Shown one piece after another: positions 2 to 19,516 of a stretch of DNA of 64,000 nucleotides (position 1 is the stretch's first letter; every line of letters starts with the position of its first letter). The position numbers and the translations under genes were made by a program. The notes beneath the pieces are model-generated. The model was given only the letters and a program-made list of their open reading frames with translations. It ran no database searches and was not told where the DNA came from. The stretch comes from Flavobacterium sp. 1 (lineage in GTDB: Bacteria; Bacteroidota; Bacteroidia; Flavobacteriales; Flavobacteriaceae), in assembly GCF_002797935.1 (NCBI RefSeq), contig NZ_PGER01000001.1:1178001-1242000 (forward strand), read 5' to 3'.

Positions 2-2161
2 AGAGGAAAAGACAACTTTGAGAATTTTATGGAAAATGGTCTGCTAACCACTAACAATTTAGCACTTGCATCAAACTTCGATAAAGGGAATATCAGATTT
101 TCGCTTTCAAATACGAGCCAAAAAGGAATCAATCCAAATACGAAATTAAATATTTACAATTTTAACCTTAGTGGAAGATATAATATAAGTGATAAAACGT
201 GGGTAGATGCAAGTTCTAATTTTAACTTTCAGACTTCTCCAAACAATCCAAATGTACAATATGGACCTAACAGTTATATCTATAATATGCTGATTTGGGG
301 TGGTGCTGATTATGATATTAGAGATTTGAGAGACTATTGGCAGGAAGGGAAGGAAGGTTTACAGCAAAAAAACTTTGAATATACACGTTATAATAATCCT
401 TACTTCATGGCCTATGAATGGTTAAGAGGGTATTACAAAAATGATTATTCGGGACAAATAAGCCTCAACCACAAGTTCAATAGTAATTTTGATATGCTGA
501 TCAGAACGAATATGGCAGTCACCAATTTATTCGAGAATGAAAAGTTTCCGTATTCGATGACTACTTATGATAGAGAAAAAGCGCAGGGAGATTACAAAGA
601 AAAATACAATTATGGATTCAAGAATTATTCTGATTTCATGTTAAATTACAATAAAACGATTAAGAGTTTTGAGATAAAAGCAACCCTTGGAGCCAATATC
701 AATATTGATAAAACCCGTAAATCTTTTGCTTCTACAAATTATTTAATAATTCCGGGATTGTACAATTTAAGCAATTCACAAACTCCGGTGCAGCCTACAA
801 ACTACAACAGTCATTTTGAGACTCAAAGCTGGTATGGTTCTATGGATTTGTCTTATAAATCCTTTTTGTTTTTAGGCGCGACTGGAAGGTTTGATACTGA
901 TTCAAGACTACCAGAACAAAACAATACCTTCTTTTATCCATCAGTTGGTTTAAGTGCGGTTTTAAGCGAAGTGGTTAAAATTCCTTTAGTTGATTTCTTA
1001 AAAGTAAGAACCTCATATGCAAAAGTAGGTGGTTCCCTTGATATTTACAGTAATTTAGATACTTACAGGCTTAGAGATCCTTTTACAATTGACGGAAAAA
1101 CCTATAATGCGGCTTATGTTTCTGAGGTTTTATCGAATATAAATTTAGAACCTGCTTTTAATTCATCTGTTGAATTGGGTATGGAAACCAGAATGCTCAA
1201 AAACAGATTTGGTTTTGATGTAACGTATTATGAAAATACAAATGGTCCGCAGATTTTTGATTTAAAATACTCTGAAACTTCTGGGTATTCAGGAAGTAAG
1301 CAAAACGGAATTACAACAAAAACAAAAGGTATTGAAGTTTCCTTATTTGTAAAACCAATAAAAAGCAATTCTTTCAACTGGGATTTTAATATCAACTGGT
1401 CAACTTACAAAGAATATTTAAAAGAGGTTTATGACGGGATCGAAAATAATGGAAGAATAAAAATAGGTGAAAGAGTAGATGCCTTTTATATTAATGATTT
1501 CATGAGAAGCCCTGAGGGAAAACTTATCGTGGGTAACGACGGTAAACCTCTTATCAATCCTTATCAGACAAAAGTGGGTTATAAAGCTCCAGATTGGTCA
1601 ATGGGTATTACCAATAATGTGAGTTATAAAAATCTAGCCTTGAATTTTACTTTTGATGGAAGATACGGTGGAAAAATTGAAAATTATGTAAATCAAAAAA
1701 TGTGGCAGAGCGGACGACATGAAGACAGTAATACTCCAGAACGTGCCAATGATGTTATTGGTGTGAAATCTTATGTAACAGATGCAGTTGTCGTTACAGG
1801 AGGAGAGTTAATTTCTGATGGTCAAGGGAATACAATTACTGATACCAGAACTTTTGCACAAAATACGACCAAAATGTATTATCAAGATTATGCAAAAGCG
1901 TATCACGGTAATTATGCAGCCAATATTATAGATAAGACTTTCTTTAAACTAAGAGAAATTAGCTTAACATATGCTTTTCCAGCTTCTTTCTTAAAACAAT
2001 CTTTTATTGAGAACGCTTCTATTTCGTTAGTAGGCAGAGATTTAATTTATTTTTCTAAAAACAAAAACATTGATTTAGATCAATTTTTAAATGAGAGCTC
2101 TTCACCGCTTCAAACTCCAACTGTCAAAAGTTATGGTATTAACTTAAACTTTAAATTTTAA
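2..2161 (+). CDS. SusC/RagA-type TonB-dependent outer membrane transporter, C-terminal part
   Basis: The frame is open from base 2, so the gene begins outside the window. The visible 720 codons are the C-terminal barrel part of a SusC/RagA porin that normally runs about 1000 residues. The signal peptide, carboxypeptidase-like domain and plug are missing. The protein alternates aromatic/polar strands and ends in a phenylalanine (LNFKF), as outer membrane barrels do. A SusD gene starts 11 bases downstream, so the two should form the usual lidded importer. The genes that follow deal with phosphate or phosphonate esters and aminophosphonates, so the imported ligand is probably a phosphonate-bearing molecule (inference). 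The family is certain; the ligand is not visible in the sequence. Confidence 0.93.
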   Translation, partial: RGKDNFENFMENGLLTTNNLALASNFDKGNIRFSLSNTSQKGINPNTKLNIYNFNLSGRYNISDKTWVDASSNFNFQTSPNNPNVQYGPNSYIYNMLIWGGADYDIRDLRDYWQEGKEGLQQKNFEYTRYNNPYFMAYEWLRGYYKNDYSGQISLNHKFNSNFDMLIRTNMAVTNLFENEKFPYSMTTYDREKAQGDYKEKYNYGFKNYSDFMLNYNKTIKSFEIKATLGANINIDKTRKSFASTNYLIIPGLYNLSNSQTPVQPTNYNSHFETQSWYGSMDLSYKSFLFLGATGRFDTDSRLPEQNNTFFYPSVGLSAVLSEVVKIPLVDFLKVRTSYAKVGGSLDIYSNLDTYRLRDPFTIDGKTYNAAYVSEVLSNINLEPAFNSSVELGMETRMLKNRFGFDVTYYENTNGPQIFDLKYSETSGYSGSKQNGITTKTKGIEVSLFVKPIKSNSFNWDFNINWSTYKEYLKEVYDGIENNGRIKIGERVDAFYINDFMRSPEGKLIVGNDGKPLINPYQTKVGYKAPDWSMGITNNVSYKNLALNFTFDGRYGGKIENYVNQKMWQSGRHEDSNTPERANDVIGVKSYVTDAVVVTGGELISDGQGNTITDTRTFAQNTTKMYYQDYAKAYHGNYAANIIDKTFFKLREISLTYAFPASFLKQSFIENASISLVGRDLIYFSKNKNIDLDQFLNESSSPLQTPTVKSYGINLNFKF

Positions 2162-2172
2162 TACGAACAAAA

Positions 2173-3678
2173 ATGAAAACACTACAACTATATAAGAGCA
2201 TGCTGATTATTGCAATGGTTTTCGTTGCTGGATCGTGTACTAATTTTGAAGACTTAGCTGATGATCCAAACAAAGCGACAAGTGTTCCTCCGTCAATGCT
2301 GTTAACTGAGGTTCTTAGAGTAATGAATAATGTTGATGACGAAGGGCCATGGTCGGGCGCGCAAAGAGACAACCAGTTCTGGGCAATTTCATTTGATTAT
2401 TATGGAGAGCAGGATTACAATTGGGGTTCAGGACCTTTGCGTTATACTACTTTATCTAATGTAAAGGCAATGGAAAAAGAAGTTTCAAAACTGGATACAA
2501 AAAATAAGTATGGCGCATTAGCGAAGTTTTTTAATGCTTATTTCTTAGATTATATGTCAAAAAGAATGGGAGACATTCCAATGTCAGAAGCCTTAAAAGG
2601 CAATAGCAGTGAACCAATTACGAAGCCTAAATACGATACGCAGAAAGACGTTTATATTGAAATTTTAAAACTTCTAAATGAAGCTAACGATCAAATTACG
2701 GCCGCAAAGGCCGAAGTTGGAACCGGTGCTGTTGAAGGCGATTTTTTATACAATGGCGATTTGAACAAATGGCAGAAAGCAATCAATGTTTTTCATTTGA
2801 GAGTATTAATAAGCCTTAGTAAAAAAACAGCTGAGATAGGGGTTGTTAATGAGTTGAAACAAATGATCGAAAATCCGTCAAAATATCCTTTAATGAGCGG
2901 AATTGAAGACAATATGACTCGTAATTTTTCTGATGAGAATGGAAACAATTATGCTTTAAATCCAGGGAATTTTGGGCGTAACAGAAATAGAGATATCATG
3001 GGAGGCACTTATTTGAATATCTTAAAGGCAAATAAGGATCCAAGGATTTATAAAGTTGCAGATCCGACCGCTTTTTATTTTAATGCTGCTGATCCATTAA
3101 ACCTGAGTGCTTATATCGCTCCTAATACCGGCGATGAGCAAGGTCCGATGCAGGTAGCATCAGATCAGGGTAAATTGTCTTATCCGAACGAAAAAAGATA
3201 TTATAGTTCTTATGTTGGAGAAGGATATGTTTTAATTGGTTATGCAGAACAGCAGTTTATAATTGCAGAAGCTATAAACAGAGGATGGATTAGCGGTGAT
3301 GCCGCAGCTTTTTACACCAAAGGAATAAAAGCTTCCATGGATTTTTATGCCGTTAACAGTGTTGATGTTTCTACTTTCTTAGGCAGTCCAAATATTGTTT
3401 ATAAAGGGAACAATGCAAATGGTTTAGAGCAAATCTTAACGCAAAAGTATGTGGCGTTTTTCCAAAATTCTGAAAGAGAATCTTATTTTAACTTTAGAAG
3501 AACCGGAATCCCAGCTTTTAATGTTGGTCCAGCCAATAAAAATAGTGGAAAAATTCCGATGAGGTGGAAATATCCGCAAGGAGAATTTGAAAACAACTCT
3601 GAGAACGTAAACGCAGCATTAGCCAGACAATATGGAGGAACAGATGACATTAATGCGGTTATGTGGCTTCTAAAATAA
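2173..3678 (+). CDS. SusD/RagB-family nutrient-binding outer membrane lipoprotein
   Basis: This 501-residue lipoprotein has a signal peptide ending in VAGSC (Cys22) and then the DPNKAT segment common in the SusD-like subfamily described as nutrient-binding lipoproteins. It would form the surface lid over the preceding SusC barrel. Helical TPR-like segments run through the middle, and the C-terminal part has the ERESYFNFRRTG stretch typical of the family. It sits 11 bases after SusC and 7 bases before the next gene, consistent with one transcript. No glycan-specific signature is visible. The ligand is inferred only from the phosphonate-type enzymes downstream. Confidence 0.93.
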   Translation: MKTLQLYKSMLIIAMVFVAGSCTNFEDLADDPNKATSVPPSMLLTEVLRVMNNVDDEGPWSGAQRDNQFWAISFDYYGEQDYNWGSGPLRYTTLSNVKAMEKEVSKLDTKNKYGALAKFFNAYFLDYMSKRMGDIPMSEALKGNSSEPITKPKYDTQKDVYIEILKLLNEANDQITAAKAEVGTGAVEGDFLYNGDLNKWQKAINVFHLRVLISLSKKTAEIGVVNELKQMIENPSKYPLMSGIEDNMTRNFSDENGNNYALNPGNFGRNRNRDIMGGTYLNILKANKDPRIYKVADPTAFYFNAADPLNLSAYIAPNTGDEQGPMQVASDQGKLSYPNEKRYYSSYVGEGYVLIGYAEQQFIIAEAINRGWISGDAAAFYTKGIKASMDFYAVNSVDVSTFLGSPNIVYKGNNANGLEQILTQKYVAFFQNSERESYFNFRRTGIPAFNVGPANKNSGKIPMRWKYPQGEFENNSENVNAALARQYGGTDDINAVMWLLK

Positions 3679-3685
3679 AAGCATA

Positions 3686-5326
3686 ATGAAATACATCAAA
3701 AATAGAATCATAATTATAGCGATATTTTCGCTATGGTCTTGTTTTTCTCAAAATAAAAAAGACTTTTCCGGAATTAAGCATGTTGTAATCATTGGTTTTG
3801 ATGGATTGAGTCCTAACGGAATTGAAAACGCAGAAACTCCAAATTTTGACAAATTAATAAAAGAAGGAGCTTCAACCATGCATGCAAGATCAGTATTGCC
3901 ATCAAGTTCGAGCACCAATTGGGCATCGATGATTATGGGAGTGGGGCCGGAACAGCATGGAATCACTTCAAACGACTGGGAGAAAAATAATTTTATTCTT
4001 CCAGCTGTTGTACAAGGTGAGGATTTTCTTTTTCCAACCATTTTCAGGCTGATCCATATTCAGGTAAAAAATGCAGAAATAGGAGCCATTTACCACTGGT
4101 CTGGTTTTGGAAGACTTTTCGAAAAAAATGCTGTTACGTATGATATTAATCCGGAAACAGAAGATGAAACAGCACTCAAAGCCAGCGCTTATATCAAATC
4201 AAAACAACCTATTTTTACATTTGTACACTTTGATCACGTCGATCATGCCGGTCACGAATACGGTCATGGAAGTCCGGAATATTATAAAGCCGTAGAAAAA
4301 GCCGATGCTTTACTGGGTCAGGTAATGCAGGCGATAACAAGTTCTGCAATGGCAAATGAAACGGTAGTAATTGTAAGTGCTGATCATGGCGGTTTAGGTA
4401 AAGGTCATGGCGGAGAATCACTGCAGGAAGTAGAAATTCCGTTTATTGTTTGGGGAAAATCAGTTAAGAAAAATTATACTATTGATTATCCCGTTTATCA
4501 ATATGATAATGCTGCAACTGTTGCTTTTGCTCTGGGTTTAAAAATGCCGATGGCTTGTATTGGAAGACCCGTTAAAAATGCTTTTGAAGGATATAACGAC
4601 CAAGACGATTATCCGATGGCAAAAAGATTTAAAGAACCCGTAATTCTGCCAAAAGCGGTCTTAAGCAAAAGAGCAGGAGGTTTGTTTACCAATCAGGCCG
4701 AAGTGATAATCGAAAATCCAGACAAAGAAGGCGAAATTAGATACACTACTGATGGAACAATGCCTTCGGTTAAATCTCTTTTGTATAAATCTCCTTTTAA
4801 AACAGATAAAAATACAGTTGTCAAAAGTGCCCTTTTTAAAAATGGGAGTATAGCCAGTTTAGTAAGTGAAGCTTTTTTTAGAGTAATTCCTACCGGTTTT
4901 CAACCCCCGGTTTCGTATGAAATATTTTATCTGTCGAATTTAAGCGGAGTACCTTTTTTAGACAATCTGTCGCCGAATGAGAAAGGAAGTTGTTTTGAAA
5001 TAAGCTCTGAAGAAATCAATCAGAAGATTAAGGATAATACTGCTGTGAGATTTAAAACTACTATTACAATTGAAAAAGAAGGAGTATATAAATTTTATAC
5101 AAGATCGGATGACGGAAGTATTTTGAGGGTTAATAATCAAGTTGTGGCCAACAATGATGGTGATCATGGCATAATAGAAAAATCTGGTGAAATAAGCCTG
5201 AAAACAGGAGTTTATCCGCTGGAGGTTCTGTGGTTTAATGGCGGAGGAGGAGGCTGGTTAGATGTTTATTACGAAACAGCGGGAATTCCAAAACAAATTA
5301 TGCCGCCTTCTGTTTTTAAGCCATAA
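3686..5326 (+). CDS. Alkaline phosphatase superfamily phosphodiesterase-like lipoprotein with chitobiase-C-like and PA14-like domains
   Basis: The N-terminus is a lipoprotein signal with Cys19, so the enzyme is probably membrane-anchored outside the cytoplasm. Residues about 30-310 are a nucleotide pyrophosphatase/phosphodiesterase-type fold. Asp39 lies in FDG, a Ser/Thr cluster at 73-77 sits where the nucleophile belongs, then GPEQHGI, the metal ligands DHVDHAGH, and SADHGGLGKGH. Residues about 325-400 resemble the chitobiase C-terminal domain (RYTTDGTMPS). Residues about 410-540 resemble a PA14 domain (FYTRSDDGS, LEVLWFNGGGGGW). Both add-on domains are usually linked to carbohydrates, so the substrate may be a glycan- or lipid-bound phosphate or phosphonate ester. 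Phosphonoacetate hydrolase belongs to the same superfamily, so direct phosphonate chemistry is also possible. Confidence 0.85.
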   Translation: MKYIKNRIIIIAIFSLWSCFSQNKKDFSGIKHVVIIGFDGLSPNGIENAETPNFDKLIKEGASTMHARSVLPSSSSTNWASMIMGVGPEQHGITSNDWEKNNFILPAVVQGEDFLFPTIFRLIHIQVKNAEIGAIYHWSGFGRLFEKNAVTYDINPETEDETALKASAYIKSKQPIFTFVHFDHVDHAGHEYGHGSPEYYKAVEKADALLGQVMQAITSSAMANETVVIVSADHGGLGKGHGGESLQEVEIPFIVWGKSVKKNYTIDYPVYQYDNAATVAFALGLKMPMACIGRPVKNAFEGYNDQDDYPMAKRFKEPVILPKAVLSKRAGGLFTNQAEVIIENPDKEGEIRYTTDGTMPSVKSLLYKSPFKTDKNTVVKSALFKNGSIASLVSEAFFRVIPTGFQPPVSYEIFYLSNLSGVPFLDNLSPNEKGSCFEISSEEINQKIKDNTAVRFKTTITIEKEGVYKFYTRSDDGSILRVNNQVVANNDGDHGIIEKSGEISLKTGVYPLEVLWFNGGGGGWLDVYYETAGIPKQIMPPSVFKP

Positions 5327-5368
5327 TCTGAAGACAAAAAGAATAAGGATAGTATCAAATTTTATTGC

Positions 5369-6724
5369 ATGGATAATCTCAATACAAATAAAAAAACAGA
5401 AGGAGACATTAATCTAACGTCAGAGAGACTGCTTTGGAACGCATCTGAAAAGGATGAGCAGACAAAGAACCTCTTAGAAAAAGATGCACGTTATTTTTTG
5501 CATCAGTCTATGTCAACTCCATGTTTAGATGTTTTACAATCCTGTGAAGGACCTTATATCACAAATTTGAGCGGGAAGTCATATTTGGATTTTCACGGAA
5601 ACAATGTACATCAAATAGGATATGCCAATCCAAAACTGATAGAAAATCTTATTGAACAATTAAAAACATTGTCCTTTTCTCCAAGGCGTTTTACCAATAA
5701 ACCCGCCATTGATTTTGCAGAGAAATTAACCTCATTATGTCCTTCGAATTTAAACAGGGTTTTATTAACACCAAATGGCAGTTCTGCCATCGGAATTGCA
5801 CTCAAGCTAGCCAGAGCGGTAACTAAAAAGTTCAAAGTGGTTTCTTTTTGGGATTCTTTTCATGGAGCTTCTCTGGATGCGGTTAGTGTTGGCGGAGAAT
5901 CCGTTTTTAGAGAATACATGGGGCCTTTAATGCCCGGCGTAGAACGCATTCCGCCACCGGTAACGTACAGAGGTATTTTTGAAAACAACGAAAATAAATG
6001 TTTAGAATACTTAGAATATGTTTTTTCTAAAGAAAATGATATCGGAGCTTTTATTGCCGAAACCATCAGAAATACCGACGTTCAAATTCCGTCAAAAAAC
6101 TTTTGGAAAGAAGCTCGAAGACTTTGTACTCAATATGGCGTTTTATTGATTTTAGATGAAATTCCAATTGCATTAGGAAGAACAGGCAAAATGTTTGCTT
6201 TTGAAGATTATGATATTGAACCTGATATTTTATGCATAGGAAAAGGTTTGGGAGGTGGAATTATACCTCAAGCCGCAATGATTACCAGAGACGATTATAA
6301 TGTTTTTGGAGATATCTCCTTGGGACATTACACGCATGAAAAAAGCCCATTGGGATCTGTGGCGGGATTAACAACAATAGCATTTATTGAAGATGAAAAT
6401 CTTTTAGATAAAGTAAATCAGGATGCTTTTTTTATGGAGAAATCACTGCAAAAACTCAAAAGTAGGCATGCTATTATTGGAGATGTGAGAGGAAAAGGGC
6501 TTTTATGGGCTTTAGAATTGGTAAAAGATAGGATAACTAAAGAAAAGGCTGTAGACGAGGCAGAAAAAGTAATGTATAGCTGCTTAAAAAAAGGTTTAAG
6601 CTTCAAAGTTTCTGCAGGCAATGTGCTGCAATTATCACCCGCACTTACTATTACAAGAGAAGAACTGCAGACTGCATTAAAAATAGTAGAAGAAAGTTTG
6701 GATGAACTTTCATTTAAAAAATAG
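5369..6724 (+). CDS. pbfA: Class III PLP-dependent enzyme, probable (R)-1-hydroxy-2-aminoethylphosphonate ammonia-lyase (PbfA type)
   Basis: This 451-residue fold-type I class III aminotransferase homolog has the internal-aldimine lysine at Lys292 (CIGKGLGGG) and the cofactor segment LLILDEIPIALGRTG. The stretch DFHGNNVHQIGYANP near residue 75 is one I associate with the PbfA group. That group removes ammonia from (R)-1-hydroxy-2-aminoethylphosphonate and gives phosphonoacetaldehyde rather than performing transamination. The neighbours support this reading: a TIGR03364-type FAD enzyme and a PhnX-like hydrolase lie in the same operon. No signal peptide is present, so it is cytoplasmic. The alternative is an ordinary omega-aminotransferase acting on 2-aminoethylphosphonate. 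The family is certain; the exact reaction is inferred from motif memory and context. Confidence 0.75.
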   Translation: MDNLNTNKKTEGDINLTSERLLWNASEKDEQTKNLLEKDARYFLHQSMSTPCLDVLQSCEGPYITNLSGKSYLDFHGNNVHQIGYANPKLIENLIEQLKTLSFSPRRFTNKPAIDFAEKLTSLCPSNLNRVLLTPNGSSAIGIALKLARAVTKKFKVVSFWDSFHGASLDAVSVGGESVFREYMGPLMPGVERIPPPVTYRGIFENNENKCLEYLEYVFSKENDIGAFIAETIRNTDVQIPSKNFWKEARRLCTQYGVLLILDEIPIALGRTGKMFAFEDYDIEPDILCIGKGLGGGIIPQAAMITRDDYNVFGDISLGHYTHEKSPLGSVAGLTTIAFIEDENLLDKVNQDAFFMEKSLQKLKSRHAIIGDVRGKGLLWALELVKDRITKEKAVDEAEKVMYSCLKKGLSFKVSAGNVLQLSPALTITREELQTALKIVEESLDELSFKK

Positions 6725-6758
6725 GAATAAAAATGATTTAAATTTAAAAACAAATAAA

Positions 6759-7859
6759 ATGAAAAAATCAATTGTACTAATAACGCTATGTCTTTTAACC
6801 TTTTTCGGAGCTACAGCGCAGCAAAAAAAAGCAGTGAAAAATCCAAAAATTATTGTAATTACTTTAGATGGTTTTCGCTGGCAGGAATTGTTTACAGGTG
6901 CAGACAGTAAGCTAATTTCAAATAAAAAATATGTAGAAGATACTACAGCTATGAAAGAAAAATTTTGGAGAAATACAGCTGTAGAAAGAAGGGGAGCCTT
7001 AATGCCCTTTTTCTGGAATGAAGTTGTAAAAATGGGACAATTTCACGGTAATAGAAACCAAGGAAGTAATGTGAATCTAACCAATTCAATGTGGTTTTCT
7101 TATCCGGGTTATAACGAAATCTTAACGGGTTCGGCTGATGATATTCGAATCAAAAGTAATGATAAATTCAATAATCCAAATATGACTGTTTTGGAGAAGA
7201 TCAACAATCTTTCTGAATATAAAGGGAAGGTTGCCGCTTTTGGCAGTTGGGATGTTTTTCCTTTTATTATCAACGAAGAACGAGCTGGAATAACCGTAAA
7301 TGCTGGTTTTGAAGTTGCAAAAGAAGGGAAGCTTTCTCCAAGGGAAATGTTCTTAAACGAATTGCAGTCTAAGGTTCCTTCGCCTTGGGATTCTGTTCGA
7401 TTTGATGCTTTTACTTCTAACTACGCTTTAGAATATATGAAAAAAGAACATCCAGAATTAGTTTATATTTCTTACGGAGAAACAGATGATTTCGCACACG
7501 ACGGTAATTATCAGGCTTATTTAAATTCTGCCCATGCCAGTGACGGTCTAATTCAGGAATTATGGAAATTTACTCAAAAGGACTCTTTTTATAAAGACAA
7601 TACTATTTTTATTATTTCTACGGATCATGGGCGTGGTACAGAACCATTGGATGACTGGCGAAGTCATGGTTCAAAAATAAAAGGTGCGGATCAGGTTTGG
7701 TTAGTAGCATTTGGAAGCGGTATTCAAACACTTGGAGAAGTAACGACCAAAGAACAATTGTACAGCAATCAAATTGCGCCGACTGTATTACAGTTTTTTG
7801 ATTCTTCAATAAAAGATGACCAGATGAAAGGCCAGCCGTTGGATATACTTAAAAAATAA
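6759..7859 (+). CDS. Secreted alkaline phosphatase family protein (phosphodiesterase/sulfatase-like fold)
   Basis: The start at 6759 is preferred over an upstream ATG at 6702, which overlaps the previous gene. It gives a clean signal peptide (MKKSIVLITLCLLTFFGATAQ). The 366-residue mature-type protein has the superfamily metal motif TLDGFRW (Asp37), a predicted nucleophile region WFSYPGYNEILTG, then GETDDFAHDG and STDHGRG with a later RSHGS. It is therefore a compact periplasmic metallo-phospho(di)esterase. It differs from the lipoprotein phosphatase in the same operon and lacks accessory domains. Acting in sequence, the two could liberate a headgroup outside the inner membrane before import by the next gene (inference). 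The exact substrate cannot be read from sequence. Confidence 0.85.
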   Translation: MKKSIVLITLCLLTFFGATAQQKKAVKNPKIIVITLDGFRWQELFTGADSKLISNKKYVEDTTAMKEKFWRNTAVERRGALMPFFWNEVVKMGQFHGNRNQGSNVNLTNSMWFSYPGYNEILTGSADDIRIKSNDKFNNPNMTVLEKINNLSEYKGKVAAFGSWDVFPFIINEERAGITVNAGFEVAKEGKLSPREMFLNELQSKVPSPWDSVRFDAFTSNYALEYMKKEHPELVYISYGETDDFAHDGNYQAYLNSAHASDGLIQELWKFTQKDSFYKDNTIFIISTDHGRGTEPLDDWRSHGSKIKGADQVWLVAFGSGIQTLGEVTTKEQLYSNQIAPTVLQFFDSSIKDDQMKGQPLDILKK

Positions 7860-7864
7860 TTCAA

Positions 7865-9145
7865 ATGATGCGTAAAAAATCTGCTATTCCCTTTATTGCA
7901 AATGCTTCACTGGCTTCTTTTGGTGTGTATTTTTGTATGTATGCTTTCAGAAAACCTTTTAGTGTTGCCACTTTTGAGGGAATAGAAGTATTCGGGATTG
8001 ATTATAAAATTCTTCTTATCATTGCTCAGGTAATAGGTTATGTAATTTCAAAATTCATCGGAATAAAAATAATTTCAGAATTAAAAGCATCACAAAGAGT
8101 GTATTATTTATTGGGATTAATAGGCATAGCCGAGCTTGCATTGGTGTTATTTGCTATTGTCCCAAGACCATACAATATCCTTTTTATGTTTATCAATGGA
8201 GTCCCGCTCGGAATGATTTGGGGAATTGTTTTTTCGTATTTAGAAGGAAGAAAATTTACCGAAATTTTAGGAGTATCCTTAAGTACCAGTTTTATTGTTT
8301 CGAGCGGAGTTGTAAAATCGGTTGGTTTTTTTGTAATGGAGTCCCTGCATTTTTCAGAATTTTGGATGCCTGCCGTTACGGGTTTGATATTTGTTGGACC
8401 ATTATTATTTTTTGCATGGTTGCTTGAAAGAATTCCCAAACCCTCTCTTGAGGATATTGCGTTGCGCTCGGAGCGAATTCCAATGACGCGAAAAGAACGA
8501 AAAAAGGCACTATTACAATTTTTATTTCCTATTTCGCTCTGGGTTGTATTTTATACGTATCTGACGGCTTTTAGAGATTTTAGAGATAATTTTGCTCGCG
8601 AATTATGGGACAGTTTGGGATTTAAAAATGATATATCAGTCTATACGAGCTCAGAAATAATGGTAGCTGTCACTGTATTAATCGTTTTGGGAACTGCTTT
8701 TTATTTTAGAGATAATATGAAAGCACTTTTTTTTTATCACATACTACTTTTATTAGGTTCGCTATCTATTGGTATTTCAACTTTTTTGTTTCATTCTGGA
8801 AATTGTAGTCCATTCGGTTGGATGGTAGTGTCAGGATTTGGATTATATATTTGCTACATACCTTTTAACTGTCTTTTTTTTGATCGTTTTATTGCCGCAT
8901 TCAAAATAAAAGGAAATGCTGGTTTTTTTATTTACATAGTTGATGCTTTTGGGTATTTGGGAAGCGTAGTAGTTTTATTGTACAAAAATTTCGGTCAGCC
9001 AGATTTATCCTGGTTAGATTTTTTTATGAATGGAGCCTATTTAATTACTGCTATTGGCATCATAGTAACCATAAGTTCAATGTTATATCTCAATAGAAAG
9101 AAGAAGAAACAAAAGAAACAGAATATAACTTTTCAATTAGCTTAA
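7865..9145 (+). CDS. DUF5690-type inner membrane transporter (MFS-like)
   Basis: This 426-residue polytopic protein has about eleven to twelve hydrophobic segments. Its N-terminal GVYFCMYAFRKPFSVATFEG resembles organophosphate:phosphate antiporter-like MFS proteins and fits my memory of the DUF5690 family of Bacteroidota. It begins 5 bases after the phosphatase-like gene. Its stop codon abuts the ATG of the FAD oxidoreductase, so translation is probably coupled. In this operon it is the only candidate for moving the released aminophosphonate across the inner membrane (inference). A basic C-terminal tail (RKKKKQKKQ) faces the cytoplasm if the topology is as expected. The DUF number is from memory. 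Confidence 0.8.
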   Translation: MMRKKSAIPFIANASLASFGVYFCMYAFRKPFSVATFEGIEVFGIDYKILLIIAQVIGYVISKFIGIKIISELKASQRVYYLLGLIGIAELALVLFAIVPRPYNILFMFINGVPLGMIWGIVFSYLEGRKFTEILGVSLSTSFIVSSGVVKSVGFFVMESLHFSEFWMPAVTGLIFVGPLLFFAWLLERIPKPSLEDIALRSERIPMTRKERKKALLQFLFPISLWVVFYTYLTAFRDFRDNFARELWDSLGFKNDISVYTSSEIMVAVTVLIVLGTAFYFRDNMKALFFYHILLLLGSLSIGISTFLFHSGNCSPFGWMVVSGFGLYICYIPFNCLFFDRFIAAFKIKGNAGFFIYIVDAFGYLGSVVVLLYKNFGQPDLSWLDFFMNGAYLITAIGIIVTISSMLYLNRKKKKQKKQNITFQLA

Positions 9146-10303
9146 ATGAAAACACAATATGATTTAATTGTTGTTGGCGGAGGTGTTTTAGGAACTTTTC
9201 ATGCGTATCATGCCTTAAAAATGGGACTTAAAGTTGCCGTTATTGAAAAGGACAAAATGCCAAAAAGTGCTACAATTCAAAATTTTGGACAAGTTGTGCC
9301 TTCTGGAATGGATTCAAAATGGCAGGCATATGGAAGAGAAAGTTTAGCGATATATAAAGAAATTCAGAGTCAGTTTGATATATCTGTTCGACAAAACGGC
9401 TCGGTATATTTAGCTTCAAATGATGAAGAATTACAACTTATTGAAGAACTTTCTCTGATCAATAAATCCAATAATTATAAATCCGTTTTATTGAGTACAA
9501 AAGAATGCCTAGATAAATATTCGGGTTTGCGTGCAGATTATGTAAAAGGAGGATTGTTTTTTCCCGATGAAGTAACGGTTGAGCCAAGAACGATGATTTA
9601 CAGGCTTCAGGAGTACATGGTGCAGCATTTGGGACTAGAATTAATTACCAATACCGCTATTTTAAATTGTGAAAATTTACCTGAAAACGTTGTTTTGGAG
9701 AGTGCTTCAAAGAAATGTTATTTTGCTAAAAAAGTGATTATCTGCAATGGAAGCGAATTTAAAAATTTATTCCCTGAATTGTTTTTTAATAGCGATTTAG
9801 AGGTTTCAAAATTGCAAATGCTGCAAACCAAGCCTCAGAAAAATTACAAATTAGACGGTTCCATTTTGACTGGTTTATCGATCAGACGATACGAGTCTTT
9901 TTATGAATGTCCTTCTTTTAAAGAAATAAAAGCAAAAGAAAATCCTGAAGCTTTAGAGAAAAAATGGGGCGTGCATATTTTATTCAAACAGGCTGTAGAC
10001 GGTTCTGTTATTTTGGGGGATTCGCACCAATATGCATTGGCAAAAAATAGTGATGATTTAGGTTTTATTCTCGATATGGATATTGATAATTTTATGATTG
10101 AAGAGGCCAAAAAAATTATAGATTTACCCACTTACGAAATTCAAAATAGATGGTTCGGCACCTATTCTCAATGCAAAACCAAAGATATTTTTGAGCATAA
10201 AATTGGTGAAAATATTCACATTATTACAGGAATAGGAGGAAAAGGAATGACAGGAAGTGCTGGTTTTTCAAAAGAAAATAGTATTAAAATTTTTAATAAA
10301 TAA
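9146..10303 (+). CDS. TIGR03364-type FAD-dependent oxidoreductase, probable aminophosphonate oxidase
   Basis: The 385-residue DAO-family flavoprotein opens with a Rossmann dinucleotide motif (GGGVLG, residues 11-16) followed by a VIEKD acidic end. The TIGR03364 clade is defined by occurring beside phosphonatase-like hydrolases. It is proposed to deaminate an aminophosphonate close to 2-aminoethylphosphonate. Here the partner hydrolase begins 2 bases downstream and the transporter ends immediately upstream. Enzymes of this kind have been reported to oxidize 2-aminoethylphosphonate and N-methyl derivatives to phosphonoacetaldehyde with peroxide release (recalled, not checked). It would act in parallel to the PLP lyase so that two substrates converge on one aldehyde. 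Confidence 0.82.
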   Translation: MKTQYDLIVVGGGVLGTFHAYHALKMGLKVAVIEKDKMPKSATIQNFGQVVPSGMDSKWQAYGRESLAIYKEIQSQFDISVRQNGSVYLASNDEELQLIEELSLINKSNNYKSVLLSTKECLDKYSGLRADYVKGGLFFPDEVTVEPRTMIYRLQEYMVQHLGLELITNTAILNCENLPENVVLESASKKCYFAKKVIICNGSEFKNLFPELFFNSDLEVSKLQMLQTKPQKNYKLDGSILTGLSIRRYESFYECPSFKEIKAKENPEALEKKWGVHILFKQAVDGSVILGDSHQYALAKNSDDLGFILDMDIDNFMIEEAKKIIDLPTYEIQNRWFGTYSQCKTKDIFEHKIGENIHIITGIGGKGMTGSAGFSKENSIKIFNK

Positions 10304-10305
10304 GA

Positions 10306-10989
10306 ATGAAGCAAGAAATAGAACTGGTTGTATTTGATATGGCCGGAACAACTGTTGACGAAGAAAATATAGTGTATAAAACAGTACAAAAAGTAATTAA
10401 TGATGAAGGTTATAATGTATCACTAAAAGAGGTTTTGAATTATGGAGCGGGTAAGGAAAAACACCAAGCTATTTTGGATGTTTTAAAAGAATGTACCAAT
10501 TTAGAGATTGTTGAATTAACGGCTCATAAAGTATTTTTGAATTTTAAAGCAGCATTAGAACTCGCTTATTCTAATTTAGACATTAAAACGTTTGAAGGCA
10601 CTGAAGCATTATTTAAGGATCTAAGAGATAAAAATATAAAAGTAGTTCTAAATACGGGCTATGATTTTGTTACGGCAAAAAAAATACTAATTAAACTAGG
10701 CTGGTCAATAGGAGAAACCATTGATGCTTTGGTAACTTCTGATGATGTTGAGAACGGGAGACCTGCTGGAGATATGATTCTGAAAGCGATGGAAATTACG
10801 GGTATTACCGATGCTAAAAAAGTCTTAAAAGTTGGAGATTCTGCAATTGACATTGAGGAAGGGAAAAGTGCTCAATGTGGAATGACGGCAGGAGTTTTGA
10901 CTGGTGCACAGACCAGAGAGCAAATTCAAAGTGCGGATCCAACTTTTATATTGAATGACTTAACCGAATTAAGAGCGATACTCTTTTAA
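10306..10989 (+). CDS. Phosphonatase-like HAD hydrolase (PhnX relative, TIGR03351 type)
   Basis: The 227-residue HAD enzyme has the DxAGT signature that separates phosphonatases from other HAD proteins: Asp11 as nucleophile in FDMAGTTVDEE. The later segment NGRPAGDM carries Arg where most HADs have Lys, and KVGDSAIDIEEGKSA is the last acidic motif. Its role would be cleavage of the C-P bond of phosphonoacetaldehyde or a close analogue, giving a two-carbon product and phosphate. The TIGR03351 clade is described as lacking the Schiff-base lysine of PhnX. By eye, however, Lys50 in GAGKEKH lines up with that residue. It is the last gene of the operon and converges with the XRE-cupin gene. Confidence 0.82.
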   Translation: MKQEIELVVFDMAGTTVDEENIVYKTVQKVINDEGYNVSLKEVLNYGAGKEKHQAILDVLKECTNLEIVELTAHKVFLNFKAALELAYSNLDIKTFEGTEALFKDLRDKNIKVVLNTGYDFVTAKKILIKLGWSIGETIDALVTSDDVENGRPAGDMILKAMEITGITDAKKVLKVGDSAIDIEEGKSAQCGMTAGVLTGAQTREQIQSADPTFILNDLTELRAILF

Positions 10990-11071
10990 ATTTTAGTATT
11001 TTTTTTATTCTTACTTGTTGTTATCTGATAGGGAGGAGCTTTTTTTTATAAAAGCATATTCTTTTGGTACG

Positions 11072-11653
11072 TTATCCTCTTTGTGTATTTAAAAAAAAAT
11101 ACAGCACTAACATTTTGGTGGAAACGTTGCTACGGTTTACAGGAACATGTGGAATTCTGCCATCATAAAAAATAGAGTCGCCTTCTTTTAGTAGTACTTC
11201 ATCTTCTCCGATTACGTATACACATTCTCCAGAAAGCATGTATTTGTATTCGTAAGCATCGGTTTCAACTTTTTCTCTTTTAGAATTTGGCTGCACCTCT
11301 AGTAATACGGCCTCAAAACCAATCGAAGAAAGCTGTTTTGCAAAGATATATTGATATGTAAATCCTTTTGTATCGTCTTCTTTTTCAATGATATAATTGT
11401 CTTGCGCACGTGAAACTAGATAATTTTCTCCTGTAGGTTTTGGCATCCCTTCAAAGAAATCTGAAACTTCAATTTCAAGGGCATTAATAATATTCAATAA
11501 AACTGGAAGTGAAGGTATTGTCCTTCCGTTCTCAATTCTCGATATCAGACCATTACTCACCTCGGCTGTATTTGCAACTGTACTGATTGTTTTTTTATTT
11601 TTTTTTCGAATATCTTTTATTCTTTTCCCTATTCCAATTAAGTAGTCGTTCAT
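11072..11653 (-). CDS. XRE-cupin transcriptional regulator
   Basis: Residues about 8-62 form an XRE helix-turn-helix (TISTVANTAEVSNGLISRIENG). Residues about 110-190 form a small cupin (ESGECVY-like core with DAYEYKYMLSGE, GDSIFYDGRIPHVPVN). In this class the cupin senses a small metabolite and changes DNA binding. An in-frame GTG lies one codon before the chosen ATG at 11653. It is convergent with the phosphonate operon, so it is the natural candidate for its regulator (inference from position only). The cupin ligand could be the aminophosphonate or the aldehyde product. No other regulator gene is present between 1 and 11900. Confidence 0.88.
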   Translation of the reverse strand: MNDYLIGIGKRIKDIRKKNKKTISTVANTAEVSNGLISRIENGRTIPSLPVLLNIINALEIEVSDFFEGMPKPTGENYLVSRAQDNYIIEKEDDTKGFTYQYIFAKQLSSIGFEAVLLEVQPNSKREKVETDAYEYKYMLSGECVYVIGEDEVLLKEGDSIFYDGRIPHVPVNRSNVSTKMLVLYFFLNTQRG

Positions 11654-11679
11654 CACACTTGGTATTTGTTACGAATATG

Positions 11680-18137: not shown

Positions 18138-19505
18138 TTAATATCCTTGATTTTGAGTTAAAAAAGGATTTGAACGTCTAGCCGATTCTGGTATTGGAAA
18201 CAGACTGTCTGTAGAAGCCCATATTTTTCCTGTGATTGCTCCCAGAACCTGATCAGCTTTACCGGTTCTTTTCAGGTCTAACCATCTGTGGCCATTTTCG
18301 GCAAATAGCTCTCTTTGTCTTTCTAAAGCAATTAAGTCCAACAATTGATTGGGATCTGTTAAAGTAGTGTTTCCTAATAAAGCTCTGTTTCGTATTACAT
18401 TAATATCTTGCTGAGCTCCGGTAATATCATTTAGTTTTACCCTTGCTTCAGCTCTTATCAAGTAAAGTTCGGCTAAACGAAGAATCGTTGAACGTTCTAT
18501 AGGTGTTGTAGTATAAGCATTTTTATATTTTCTTGGAATTGTATATGTTGCCCCATCAGCAGCAACGGTAGTACCTGTCCAGTTTGTTTTTCTGGCATCA
18601 CCAGTTTCAAACAGTGTATTTCCATTTCTTAGCATATATGTACCTGCTGTTGTATATAATGTACCGCCTTCATAAGTATAAACAGTATTGAAATATGGTA
18701 TTTGTAAAATAGCTTCTTTATTATCTGCAATGAATGGACTGTTAGTACTTGAGAGAGCAGTAATCATTTTATAGGTTTCAGTTTCGTTAATTACTGCCGT
18801 TGCATAAGATGATACTTCTGTCCATTTTCCTAAATAAAGATTAACTCTTGCTAATAGAGCCTGAGCTGCCCACTTTGTTGCTCTGATACGTAGAGTTGTA
18901 TAGTTGTCATAATTTGTAGGTAGGTCAACTGATGCTTCTTCTAAGTCTTTAATAATTTGATTGTAAATTTCAGTTTGCTTATTACGCGGTGCCAAAGCGG
19001 TTATGTCTACATTAGTGCTTAAAATTAAAGGAATATCGCCCCAAATATTAGTCATATAAAAATAGTTATAGGCTCTTAAAAACTTTGCTTCAGCTATCCA
19101 TTGTTTACTTTTAGTTTCAGATAACGTCTGACTTGCACTTATTCCTTCAATAACGTTATTCGCATTATAAATGGTTTTATAGAATTCTGTCCACATGGTA
19201 CCGATAGTTCCATCAGTATCTAAAAGCTCATTAGTAGTATAAACATTACTAAGCTGCGTTTTTAGAATGAATTCGTCTGAAGTTTCTCCAAGAACGTAAT
19301 TTAATGATCCATAATAGGTAGTCGTTACCATACTTTGATAAATTCCGTTAACGGCAGCTTCTGCAGTAGGATCAGAGGCATATACAGTTTTGGCTGATAA
19401 TTGATCTATAGGAATTTCAACTTCTAATAAATCATTGCAGCTCGTTAATCCTATCAATAGAAAAAACGAAAATATATAAGTGTATTTTATAGAATTATTT
19501 TTCAT
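18138..19505 (-). CDS. RagB/SusD-family outer membrane lipoprotein
   Basis: The 455-residue lipoprotein (GLTSC, Cys23) continues with NDLLEVEIPIDQLSAKTVYAS, the standard start of a mature SusD. Later segments include LRAYNYFYMTNIWGDIPLI and the C-terminal ALERQRELFAENGHRWLDLKRTGKADQVL. It is paired with the frameshifted SusC 11 bases upstream. The unit sits downstream of an ECF sigma/FecR pair, so expression is probably induced by substrate binding to SusC. No glycoside hydrolase is nearby. Peptidase genes flank the cluster, so peptide-type ligands, as for RagAB, are possible. Confidence 0.93.
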   Translation of the reverse strand: MKNNSIKYTYIFSFFLLIGLTSCNDLLEVEIPIDQLSAKTVYASDPTAEAAVNGIYQSMVTTTYYGSLNYVLGETSDEFILKTQLSNVYTTNELLDTDGTIGTMWTEFYKTIYNANNVIEGISASQTLSETKSKQWIAEAKFLRAYNYFYMTNIWGDIPLILSTNVDITALAPRNKQTEIYNQIIKDLEEASVDLPTNYDNYTTLRIRATKWAAQALLARVNLYLGKWTEVSSYATAVINETETYKMITALSSTNSPFIADNKEAILQIPYFNTVYTYEGGTLYTTAGTYMLRNGNTLFETGDARKTNWTGTTVAADGATYTIPRKYKNAYTTTPIERSTILRLAELYLIRAEARVKLNDITGAQQDINVIRNRALLGNTTLTDPNQLLDLIALERQRELFAENGHRWLDLKRTGKADQVLGAITGKIWASTDSLFPIPESARRSNPFLTQNQGY

Positions 19506-19516
19506 GTTTTTTAGAT

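Follow-up and report, generated by a model that had tools for sequence, protein, structure and literature searches.

Introduction

SusCD complexes of Flavobacterium that are Pi-induced adjoin phosphonate-degrading enzymes, according to one sentence of PMC8115612, and the same source reports six such PusCDs in Flavobacterium. In Maribacter forsetii, a SusCD pair that rose on laminarin, and that was also expressed on glucose, has been assigned to laminarin uptake in the relevant part of PMC11345257. Its neighbours there bear the names alkaline phosphatase, FAD-dependent oxidoreductase and phosphonatase-like hydrolase, and resemble, by gene name, the genes described below. Published aminophosphonate work, in the sections consulted, concerns free 2-aminoethylphosphonate (AEP) and its uptake through carriers of the ABC or GlpT-like kind. 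Enzymes of the TIGR03364 family correspond to PbfD and oxidise N-methyl-AEP and AEP to phosphonoacetaldehyde (PMC10590968), and clusters that have PbfD but lack phnW are already known (PMC8154272, PMC10590968). Glycans and lipids also contain AEP and 1-hydroxy-2-aminoethylphosphonate (HAEP) in bound form; HAEP is reported from an amoebal phosphonoglycan and from the membrane lipid of Bdellovibrio stolpii (PMC8154272).

Here we describe a locus in a 64,000-nucleotide stretch of the Flavobacterium sp. 1 genome (the window, whose positions are used throughout), for which an earlier note had proposed a tie between SusCD and C-P bond catabolism. The tie holds in the operon but not as a novelty, the coupling being already in print (PMC8115612). 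What is new here is a conserved core of genes, the pairing of one phosphodiesterase (PDE1) with PbfA, a shared operator-like switch, and a likely transporter family.

Results

Eight genes lie on one strand, separated by 0-42 bases, and a convergent gene for an XRE-cupin regulator comes after them. In order, they encode SusC, SusD, PDE1, PbfA, PDE2, a DUF5690 protein, PbfD and a PhnX-like hydrolase. The stop-to-start gaps along the operon are 11, 7, 42, 34, 5, 0 and 2 bases, the one before PDE2 being measured with the ATG at 6759 as its start (the mechanical open reading frame opens at 6702). The susC gene crosses the window edge and truly starts 922 bases outside, at contig coordinate 1177078; its earlier start coordinate of 2 is the window edge only. 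Family-model scores place all the genes named in the earlier note where it had put them, in one nearly gapless operon next to the XRE-cupin gene, and the gene order is not chance, because core genes of the operon recur in nearly all of 76 further loci found by PbfD. A Pfam family search detected no glycoside hydrolase or lyase families among the operon genes, and the CHB_HEX_C accessory domain of PDE1 is the sole CAZyme-related feature of the operon. Upstream of the operon are a GH31 gene and a second SusCD.

The 3' part of the gene for SusC, the TonB-dependent outer-membrane channel, occupies positions 2..2161 (+ strand). This 719-aa piece scores 266 bits against TIGR04056 (cut-off 368), and the whole 1027-aa protein scores 513 bits. 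SusD (2173..3678, +), a surface lipoprotein lid of the SusD-like_2 type, reaches 237 bits against PF12771 (cut-off 27) and carries AGSC, presumably its lipobox. The two genes are thus adjacent and both exceed the cut-offs of their family models, as befits a SusCD importer. On the tree, this SusD clusters with SusDs from some phosphonate loci of other families (support 100/98). A single clade for all phosphonate-linked SusDs was considered and rejected, as the tree requires the label to change twice. All 10 SusDs tested are of the PF12771 type, partly owing to the reference proteins, which for the search outside Flavobacteriaceae were few and mostly of that type, such that SusDs of other types would escape detection. 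Against the need for such a complex, free AEP is too small a molecule to require SusCD.

PDE1 (3686..5326, +) is an NPP-type metallo-phosphodiesterase by sequence and likely a lipoprotein. It scores 115 bits against PF01663, and the chitobiase-C-like and PA14-like domains previously read on it are recovered by PF13290 (CHB_HEX_C, 48 bits) and PF07691 (51 bits). NPPs are its best PDB matches. Residues D39, S75, D186, H190, D233 and H234, which we take to be the metal and nucleophile residues of NPPs, align with Xac NPP and, together with H241, are invariant in two alignments; PDE1 has Ser at the position where NPPs carry Thr. PDE1 accordingly combines the PF01663 domain with the conserved metal and nucleophile positions of an NPP. 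Its structural model (pTM 0.55), in which the active-site region 88-114 is poorly modelled, matches the folds of NPPs and sulfatases about equally, and therefore the model does not settle between phosphodiesterase and sulfatase. PDE1 probably frees R-HAEP from phosphonate esters. PDE2 (6759..7859, +), a second secreted enzyme of the alkaline phosphatase superfamily with a signal-peptide-like N-terminus, scores 30.6 bits against PF01663 (cut-off 23), and a sequence search of the PDB at E 0.01 returned no relative. Its slot holds a calcineurin-like enzyme in locus L039 and a PF04185 enzyme in locus L044.

PbfA (5369..6724, +) scores 730 bits against NF049939 (curated cut-off 525), and PbfD (9146..10303, +), an FAD amine oxidase for (N-methyl-)2-aminoethylphosphonate, scores 417 bits against TIGR03364 (curated cut-off 285). 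The PhnX-like HAD hydrolase (10306..10989, +) scores 230 bits against TIGR03351 (cut-off 218.9) and 95.7 bits against the sister model TIGR01422, the PhnX equivalog, whose cut-off is 220. Its best PDB matches are PhnX chains. D11 is kept in 82 of 82 aligned homologues and K50 in 81 of 82, the latter aligning with a position occupied by Lys in 2iof and 1rql and by Arg in 2ioh; we assume that these are the nucleophile Asp and the Schiff-base Lys of PhnX. On this basis, we propose that the enzyme is a phosphonoacetaldehyde hydrolase. Neither PhnW (at E 1e-10) nor the C-P lyase PhnJ was found in the whole genome, so that PbfD and PbfA remain as entries to phosphonoacetaldehyde. The chemistry of both is established for their families by published enzymology and is assigned here by score. 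The FAD oxidase of the earlier note keeps its TIGR03364-type identity, while its role is updated to that of PbfD, now characterised (PMC10590968); given this characterisation, PbfA and PbfD would form two parallel entries to phosphonoacetaldehyde.

The DUF5690 protein (7865..9145, +), a proposed inner-membrane (amino)phosphonate permease, has PF18943 as its sole Pfam match (558 bits). Its predicted structure has a major-facilitator (MFS) fold, closest in fold comparison to the organophosphate antiporter G6PT. An hhalign comparison with an AepP/PgtP-like protein gave E 0.1 and nothing significant, and a PDB profile search returned no transporter, with one meaningless thioredoxin row at E 0.22. 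The placement thus comes from fold comparison, profile comparisons not having placed the protein. Across 395 Bacteroidota genomes, a phosphonate gene lies within 5 kb of DUF5690 at 34 of 47 places, the other 13 being without one. SusC, SusD or a TonB receptor accompanies 21 of the 34 phosphonate-linked places as against 2 of the 13 others (p = 0.008), and all 15 remote FAD proteins tested from DUF5690 loci exceed the TIGR03364 cut-off. DUF5690 is likely a new transporter family, and aminophosphonate is its proposed substrate.

We compared the window with the 76 further loci found by PbfD alone (77 PbfD loci in total), many of which are close relatives, so that the counts are not independent events. 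Of these 76, 75 contain the PhnX-like gene, 73 contain DUF5690 and 72 have an XRE-cupin gene (73 of 77 with the window). DUF5690-PbfD-PhnX-like plus the regulator is therefore the conserved core. The earlier note had staked its reading on the SusCD pair being kept with the phosphonate genes in relatives, and SusC and SusD indeed stand beside the core in 53 of the 77 loci. SusD was not seen in 24 loci, some of them short stretches; a different type of TonB receptor is present in 14 loci, and elsewhere no outer-membrane transporter lies within the stretch examined. The core can thus do without SusCD. An MBL-fold gene occurs in 27 loci, and probably in more, since frames that overlap are lost by the simple gene caller.

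Of the 77 loci, 48 contain both PDE1 and PbfA (in two of these the locus end cuts PbfA), and neither ever occurs alone. Among the 29 loci with neither, at least six are truncated: L058, L073, L074, L082, L084 and L097 end so near that the pair may lie beyond the end. L051 and L052 are also cut in part. In a tree of 16 loci, at least 3 switches in the presence of the pair fall on well-supported branches. Among the 395 Bacteroidota genomes, PbfA is found in 15 and PDE1 in 16, with both in 11 where about 0.6 would be expected; this leaves 4 genomes with PbfA but not PDE1, and 5 with PDE1 but not PbfA.

The regulator (11072..11656, - strand) matches HTH_3 (PF01381, 39 bits) and Cupin_2 (PF07883, 40 bits). 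A palindromic operator-like site, often in tandem at 41-42 bases, stands 5' of SusC, the TonB receptor or DUF5690. In our strain, the SusC ATG is preceded, outside the window, by the palindromes TTAACTAATAGTAAA and TTTACTAATAGTAAT, whose ends lie 56 and 14 bases before it; these two sites, 42 apart, score 14.6 and 17.9 bits, as against no more than 5.6 bits for the neighbouring upstream SusC. Under a matrix built from sites before DUF5690 and TonB-receptor genes, a score of at least 9 bits is reached by 40 of the 42 SusC genes that are divergent from the regulator, versus 45 of 387 other leading genes. Palindrome counts 5' of the regulator gene mostly reflect the intergenic stretch it has in common with SusC. 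The motif shows no genome-wide enrichment (6 near matches versus 13 in the reversed control), and 2 of the 6 near matches stand at this locus. Among the remaining DUF5690 loci from the phylum sample, operator pairs are confined to Flavobacteriaceae, with single weak matches elsewhere, making the operator a family-level element at most. Because the site is common to both, SusC is tied to the phosphonate genes even where these are in separate operons. The XRE-cupin protein putatively binds the tandem operator.

Discussion

We favour, with moderate confidence, the view that this operon imports phosphonate-decorated molecules, releases the aminophosphonate and breaks its C-P bond, making it a relative, specific to phosphonates, of the phosphate utilisation systems known from Flavobacterium. 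The SusCD importer and the aminophosphonate genes form one operon, as previously suggested, an association underlined by its recurrence and by the shared operator-like site. SusD and SusC would bind and import molecules with ester-linked AEP, N-methyl-AEP or R-1-hydroxy-2-aminoethylphosphonate, with phosphonoglycans or sphingophosphonolipid headgroups as candidate cargo. In the periplasm, PDE1, acting on the hydroxylated headgroup, and PDE2 or its stand-ins would cut the P-O-C ester. The earlier note had placed this cleavage at the surface before import, but periplasmic cleavage after import would fit SusCD better. DUF5690 would move the free aminophosphonate over the inner membrane, perhaps exchanging phosphate. 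In the cytosol, PbfA would convert R-HAEP to phosphonoacetaldehyde and ammonia, PbfD would convert AEP or N-methyl-AEP to phosphonoacetaldehyde and (methyl)amine, and the PhnX-like hydrolase would yield acetaldehyde and phosphate. The XRE-cupin protein would control the operon through the palindromes 5' of the first gene.

The locus could instead be one more Pi-starvation PUS cluster for general organophosphorus scavenging, in which PDE1 and PDE2 are ordinary phosphodiesterases or phosphatases, the cargo is mixed organic phosphorus such as phospholipid headgroups, nucleotides and phosphate polymers, and the phosphonate enzymes take the phosphonate fraction. We regard this as rather unlikely. 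It accords with the Pi-induced PusCD complexes that PMC8115612 sets beside PMEs, PDEs and phosphonate enzymes, and with the unrelated phosphoesterases filling the PDE2 slot in two loci. However, PbfA accompanies PDE1 in all 48 PDE1 loci, which would not be expected of a general phosphodiesterase, and the two co-occur phylum-wide well beyond the expected number of genomes. The near-constant XRE-cupin gene and the rarity of the operator also point to the substrate as inducer instead of phosphate starvation.

Two further explanations concern the importer. That SusCD directly imports free small aminophosphonates, PDE1 and PDE2 acting on something else, seems improbable. In Flavobacterium and Tenacibaculum relatives, a SusD-less TonB receptor stands behind the same operator-like site, and since it takes a similar place, the outer-membrane step tolerates another receptor kind; yet PDE1 tracks PbfA, and HAEP is known in the bound forms cited above (PMC8154272). 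Similarly improbable is the import of a plain glycan, such as a laminarin oligosaccharide, as a carbon source alongside phosphorus scavenging. The Maribacter SusCD most raised on laminarin does adjoin genes named like PDE1, PbfD and PhnX-like (PMC11345257), and the GH31 gene and second SusCD upstream of our operon point the same way. Nevertheless, the operon itself has no detected glycoside hydrolase family, the Maribacter pair was expressed on glucose too, and the same part of PMC11345257 indicates no CAZyme beside the Maribacter SusCDs in the same reading direction. Moreover, our SusC shares its operator-like site with DUF5690 and lone TonB receptors, unlike the upstream SusC.

Returning to the import of phosphonate-decorated molecules, a wider version is conceivable but tentative: phosphonoconjugate utilisation loci in Bacteroidota, in which SusCD, with partly dedicated SusD lineages, imports phosphonate-decorated glycans or lipids, a PA14/CHB-bearing NPP is the first dedicated HAEP-ester releaser, DUF5690 is the carrier and one XRE-cupin operator governs the set. 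Amoebae, predatory bacteria and capsules are possible sources of such conjugates. The locus would offer Bacteroidota a concrete way of obtaining phosphate from phosphonoglycan or phosphonolipid, through outer-membrane capture, candidate ester cleavage and C-P hydrolysis. It also suggests functions for the unstudied DUF5690 family and an 'alkaline phosphatase family protein', and the laminarin assignment of the Maribacter SusCD pair may need correction.

Compared with known systems, the locus resembles polysaccharide utilisation loci in that susC-susD is followed, within a single operon, by genes for secreted hydrolases and for an inner-membrane transporter. In contrast to these, no CAZyme was found among its genes; the hydrolases are phosphoesterase-like and cytosolic enzymes would break the C-P bond. 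Like AepP, the GlpT-like 2AEP permease (as described in part of PMC8316502), DUF5690 is a predicted single-chain MFS-type inner-membrane carrier beside AEP enzymes, but it belongs to a separate Pfam family, with no significant profile match. The hydrolytic clusters phnWX-pbfA and pbfD-phnX (PMC8154272, PMC10590968) share PbfA, PbfD and phosphonatase, leading through phosphonoacetaldehyde to phosphate; SusC goes unmentioned in PMC10590968, as does TonB in PMC8154272. Here, by contrast, SusCD, PDE1, PDE2 and DUF5690 are joined to PbfA and PbfD without PhnW. The closest likeness in gene content is to PusCD, a SusCD-like complex beside phosphodiesterases, phosphonate enzymes and an inner-membrane organophosphorus transporter (PMC8115612), and our operon likewise co-locates SusCD with phosphoesterases and organophosphorus genes. 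The PusCD complexes were found by Pi starvation, and the relevant part of PMC8115612 names no PbfA, PbfD, DUF5690 or XRE-cupin gene. Unlike in PusCD, the regulator, the operator-like site and the PDE1-PbfA pairing of the present locus suggest substrate-driven control.

Results

The SusCD pair opens an operon of eight plus-strand genes extending from base 2 to base 10989 of the window (G000:C1:1178001-1242000 in a 5.35-Mb single-contig genome), with intergenic gaps of 11, 7, 42, 34, 5, 0 and 2 bases. SusC, cut by the window edge, starts at G000:C1:1177078 and is 1027 aa long when whole (TIGR04056, 513 bits, cut-off 368). It is followed by SusD (PF12771), the secreted alkaline-phosphatase-superfamily enzyme PDE1 (PF01663), PbfA (NF049939, 730 bits, cut-off 525), a second such enzyme, PDE2 (PF01663, weak), the DUF5690 protein (PF18943), PbfD (TIGR03364, 417 bits, cut-off 285) and a PhnX-like hydrolase (TIGR03351, 230 bits, cut-off 219). 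The regulator gene, of XRE-cupin type (11072-11656, minus strand), is convergent and lies directly 3'. These gaps and family models bear out the near-gapless operon of SusCD, phosphatase, transporter, PbfA, TIGR03364 and PhnX-like genes beside an XRE-cupin gene that the earlier note had described, and the chitobiase-C-like and PA14-like domains it assigned to the first phosphatase are present in PDE1 as CHB_HEX_C and PA14. Upstream (L003:1-10733, G000:C1:1166000-1176732) lie a separate SusCD pair, a secreted Exo_endo_phos-family protein, a GH31 enzyme with PA14, and putative sigma-like and anti-sigma-like genes; matrix scoring found no operator-like site before the SusC of that pair. A further putative SusC/SusD-like pair occupies 18138-22417 (minus strand), past ABC-transporter-like genes.

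With PbfD as the sole query, a scan of genome contigs recovered 76 loci (77 with the window), the nearest named ones from Flavobacterium species. Counted within about 10.5 kb, and as lower bounds because several loci are short, PhnX-like proteins occur in 76/77 loci, DUF5690 in 74, XRE-cupin genes in 73, SusC in 57 and TonB receptors of a different type in 14. SusC and SusD occur together in 53, in keeping with the earlier note's proposal that SusCD is tied to the phosphonate genes. PDE1 was found in 48 and PbfA, by first count, in 46; since PbfA of the two apparent exceptions (L077, L104) in fact runs off the locus end, both are together in 48 loci, either alone in none and neither in 29, at least six of which (L058, L073, L074, L082, L084, L097) end too early to judge. 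On a 16-locus tree the pair switches between present and absent five times, at least three of them on well-supported branches. This evidence is weaker than it appears, because adjacent genes can be lost in one deletion, but L056-type loci retain both genes around an intervening one.

Near Flavobacterium relatives share the single operon, and in Allomuricauda/Flagellimonas and others SusC-SusD-PDE1-PbfA lies past the regulator and divergent from it. Many of the latter loci have a metallo-beta-lactamase-fold protein between PDE1 and PbfA. This secreted protein (L056:19137-20411 and relatives), found in at least 27 of the 77 loci, many Allomuricauda-type, is a candidate esterase.

A tree was built from 23 hand-chosen phosphonate-linked SusDs together with six SusD-like_2 paralogues from the window genome, which sit on long branches and whose position is unsure. 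It groups the window SusD with ten others (support 100/98) from phosphonate loci of Flavobacterium and other families (L187, L192, L200, L208). The remaining 12, which include the Allomuricauda-type SusDs, fall elsewhere, and more than one recruitment of SusCD is probable.

Two copies of the palindrome TTTACTAnTAGTAAA, each with one mismatch, end 56 and 14 bases upstream of the start codon of the window SusC. With at most one mismatch the motif occurs at six places genome-wide, two of them here, against 13 for the reversed control; it is thus not enriched, and it is the position of the pair that is striking. Allowing two mismatches, it precedes 18/21 TonB-receptor genes, 47/62 DUF5690 genes, 8/74 regulator genes and 36/387 other leading genes, and the reversed pattern occurs 0-1 times per class; the counts for TonB receptors and DUF5690 are an independent test, which the 11/56 for SusC are not, as the motif was first noticed before Flavobacterium SusC genes. 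When trained on DUF5690 and TonB-receptor sites, a matrix (threshold 9 bits) matches 40 of the 42 SusC genes that lie divergent to the regulator, most from related genera, versus 45/387 other leading genes. Regulator genes match in 47/74 cases, largely through the same intergenic stretch. Among SusC genes elsewhere 9/14 match, and all seven that carry the site in tandem are linked to phosphonate genes; tandem spacing is 41 (28 pairs) or 42 (3 pairs). Because such sites are common to DUF5690, TonB-receptor and SusC genes, the pattern supports a predicted phosphonate regulon that includes the outer-membrane importer even when it stands in a separate operon. The XRE-cupin protein would bind the palindrome.

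Among 395 Bacteroidota genomes, PbfA exceeds its cut-off in 15 (16 places). Of the 15 places in other genomes, eight (L132, L133, L134, L139, L140, L144, L145, L146) have a PDE1 relative (41-76% identity) in the fetched stretch and seven do not; in the genomes of L142 and L143 one lies on another contig. PhnW was confirmed in L134, L139, L142 and L144, PhnA in L134 and TIGR03364 proteins in L134 and L139; PDE1 therefore accompanies several 2-aminoethylphosphonate (AEP) routes. The PDE1 profile (three candidates scored per genome) matches 16 genomes at E 1e-60, 11 of them among the 15 with PbfA (about 0.6 expected). Two PbfA-type proteins (L137:8966-10321, L141:9339-10694) exceed the NCBIfam cut-off yet are just 42-43% identical to the window PbfA, with no phosphonate genes detected nearby; the model may include another activity.

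DUF5690 occurs at 47 places in 42 genomes. By BLAST against reference proteins (identity floors 25% for PbfD, 30% for PhnX-like, 45-50% for others), a phosphonate gene lies no more than 5 kb away at 34 places and at none of the other 13. Because some matches were remote, 15 PbfD-like proteins were run against NCBIfam, and all exceeded the TIGR03364 cut-off; the PhnX-like proteins tested (L144, L187, L206, L213) fell just below that of TIGR03351 (203-216 bits vs 219). SusC, SusD or a reference-type TonB receptor accompanies 21/34 places with a phosphonate gene versus 2/13 without (p = 0.008; SusD alone 11/34 vs 0/13, p = 0.02; SusC 14/34 vs 1/13, p = 0.04; TonB receptor 5/34 vs 1/13, p = 1.0), in genomes that are not independent and with reference proteins that favour PF12771-type SusD. 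At L199:987-8118, where no phosphonate genes were detected, DUF5690 has a TonB receptor nearby and adjoins a protein that shares 40% identity with the Exo_endo_phos-type one found upstream of the operon described here; the family may have a role in a further organophosphorus pathway as well. A SusCD-PhnX-like-DUF5690-TIGR03364 cluster contains a phosphonate HD-domain oxygenase (L187:5063-5659; TIGR03276, 227 bits, cut-off 215), and SusCD is therefore also linked to a second C-P cleaving route.

Discussion

The cytosolic part of the pathway is very likely correct. PMC8154272 describes PbfA as an ammonia-lyase on R-1-hydroxy-2-aminoethylphosphonate (R-HAEP). PMC10590968 reports phosphonoacetaldehyde as the product when PbfD enzymes, one annotated TIGR03364, oxidize N-methyl-AEP and AEP, and finds many pbfD genes next to phnX alone, without phnW. 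The whole window genome has no PhnW match at E 1e-10 and no PhnJ. The PhnX-like protein scores 95.7 bits against the PhnX model (cut-off 220); the best PDB matches to it are PhnX chains, D11 is kept in 82/82 homologues and K50 in 81/82, and K50 is aligned to Lys in 2iof and to Arg in 2ioh. Given this chemistry, the absence of PhnW and PhnJ and the retained D11/K50, R-HAEP and (N-methyl-)AEP would enter through separate enzymes and converge on phosphonoacetaldehyde.

That SusCD belongs to the same system is likely and well supported, and a carrier role for DUF5690 is reasonably probable. Ester-bound cargo, with PDE1 as the releasing enzyme, is more tentative, at slightly less than even chances. 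Asp39, Ser75, Asp186, His190, Asp233 and His234 of PDE1 align with Xac NPP, and two alignments (31 and 24 sequences) show no variation at these six positions or at His241; we take the aligned residues to have the roles of the NPP core. The nearest solved relatives are NPPs by sequence, and NPPs and sulfatases by fold; several NCBI-named relatives, among the matches listed (120 of 1444), are 'alkaline phosphatase family protein'. By a loose pattern, 46/48 PDE1s have a Cys close to where the signal stretch ends. As PDE1 goes with PbfA, and HAEP occurs in an amoebal phosphonoglycan and a Bdellovibrio stolpii lipid (PMC8154272), PDE1 would free HAEP from esters. PDE2 is present in 10/77 PbfD loci; in L039 its slot between PbfA and DUF5690 is occupied by a calcineurin-like enzyme, in L044 by one of PF04185, and in L043 by no gene. 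That unrelated phosphoesterases fill one slot points to some benefit from a phosphoesterase step in the periplasm. Where a TonB receptor replaces SusCD, the locus can carry, beside or near the PhnX-like gene, a different NPP-like secreted protein (L045:12130-13809, L112:5734-7545, L115:5647-7500; 21-24% aligned identity with PDE1).

Our literature search, mostly outside subscription journals, found no paper linking SusCD by name to PbfA, PbfD or DUF5690. For Maribacter forsetii, PMC11345257 reports that the SusC with the highest laminarin rise, together with its SusD, is also expressed on glucose; its authors assign this pair to laminarin. They find no CAZyme adjoining any SusC/D in the same reading direction, and the neighbours of the laminarin-assigned pair carry the names alkaline phosphatase, FAD-dependent oxidoreductase and phosphonatase-like hydrolase. 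Because these neighbours, compared by name, match PDE1, PbfD and the PhnX-like protein, the Maribacter pair may be the same locus type as the window operon, and either the laminarin assignment or the present SusCD assignment needs correction.
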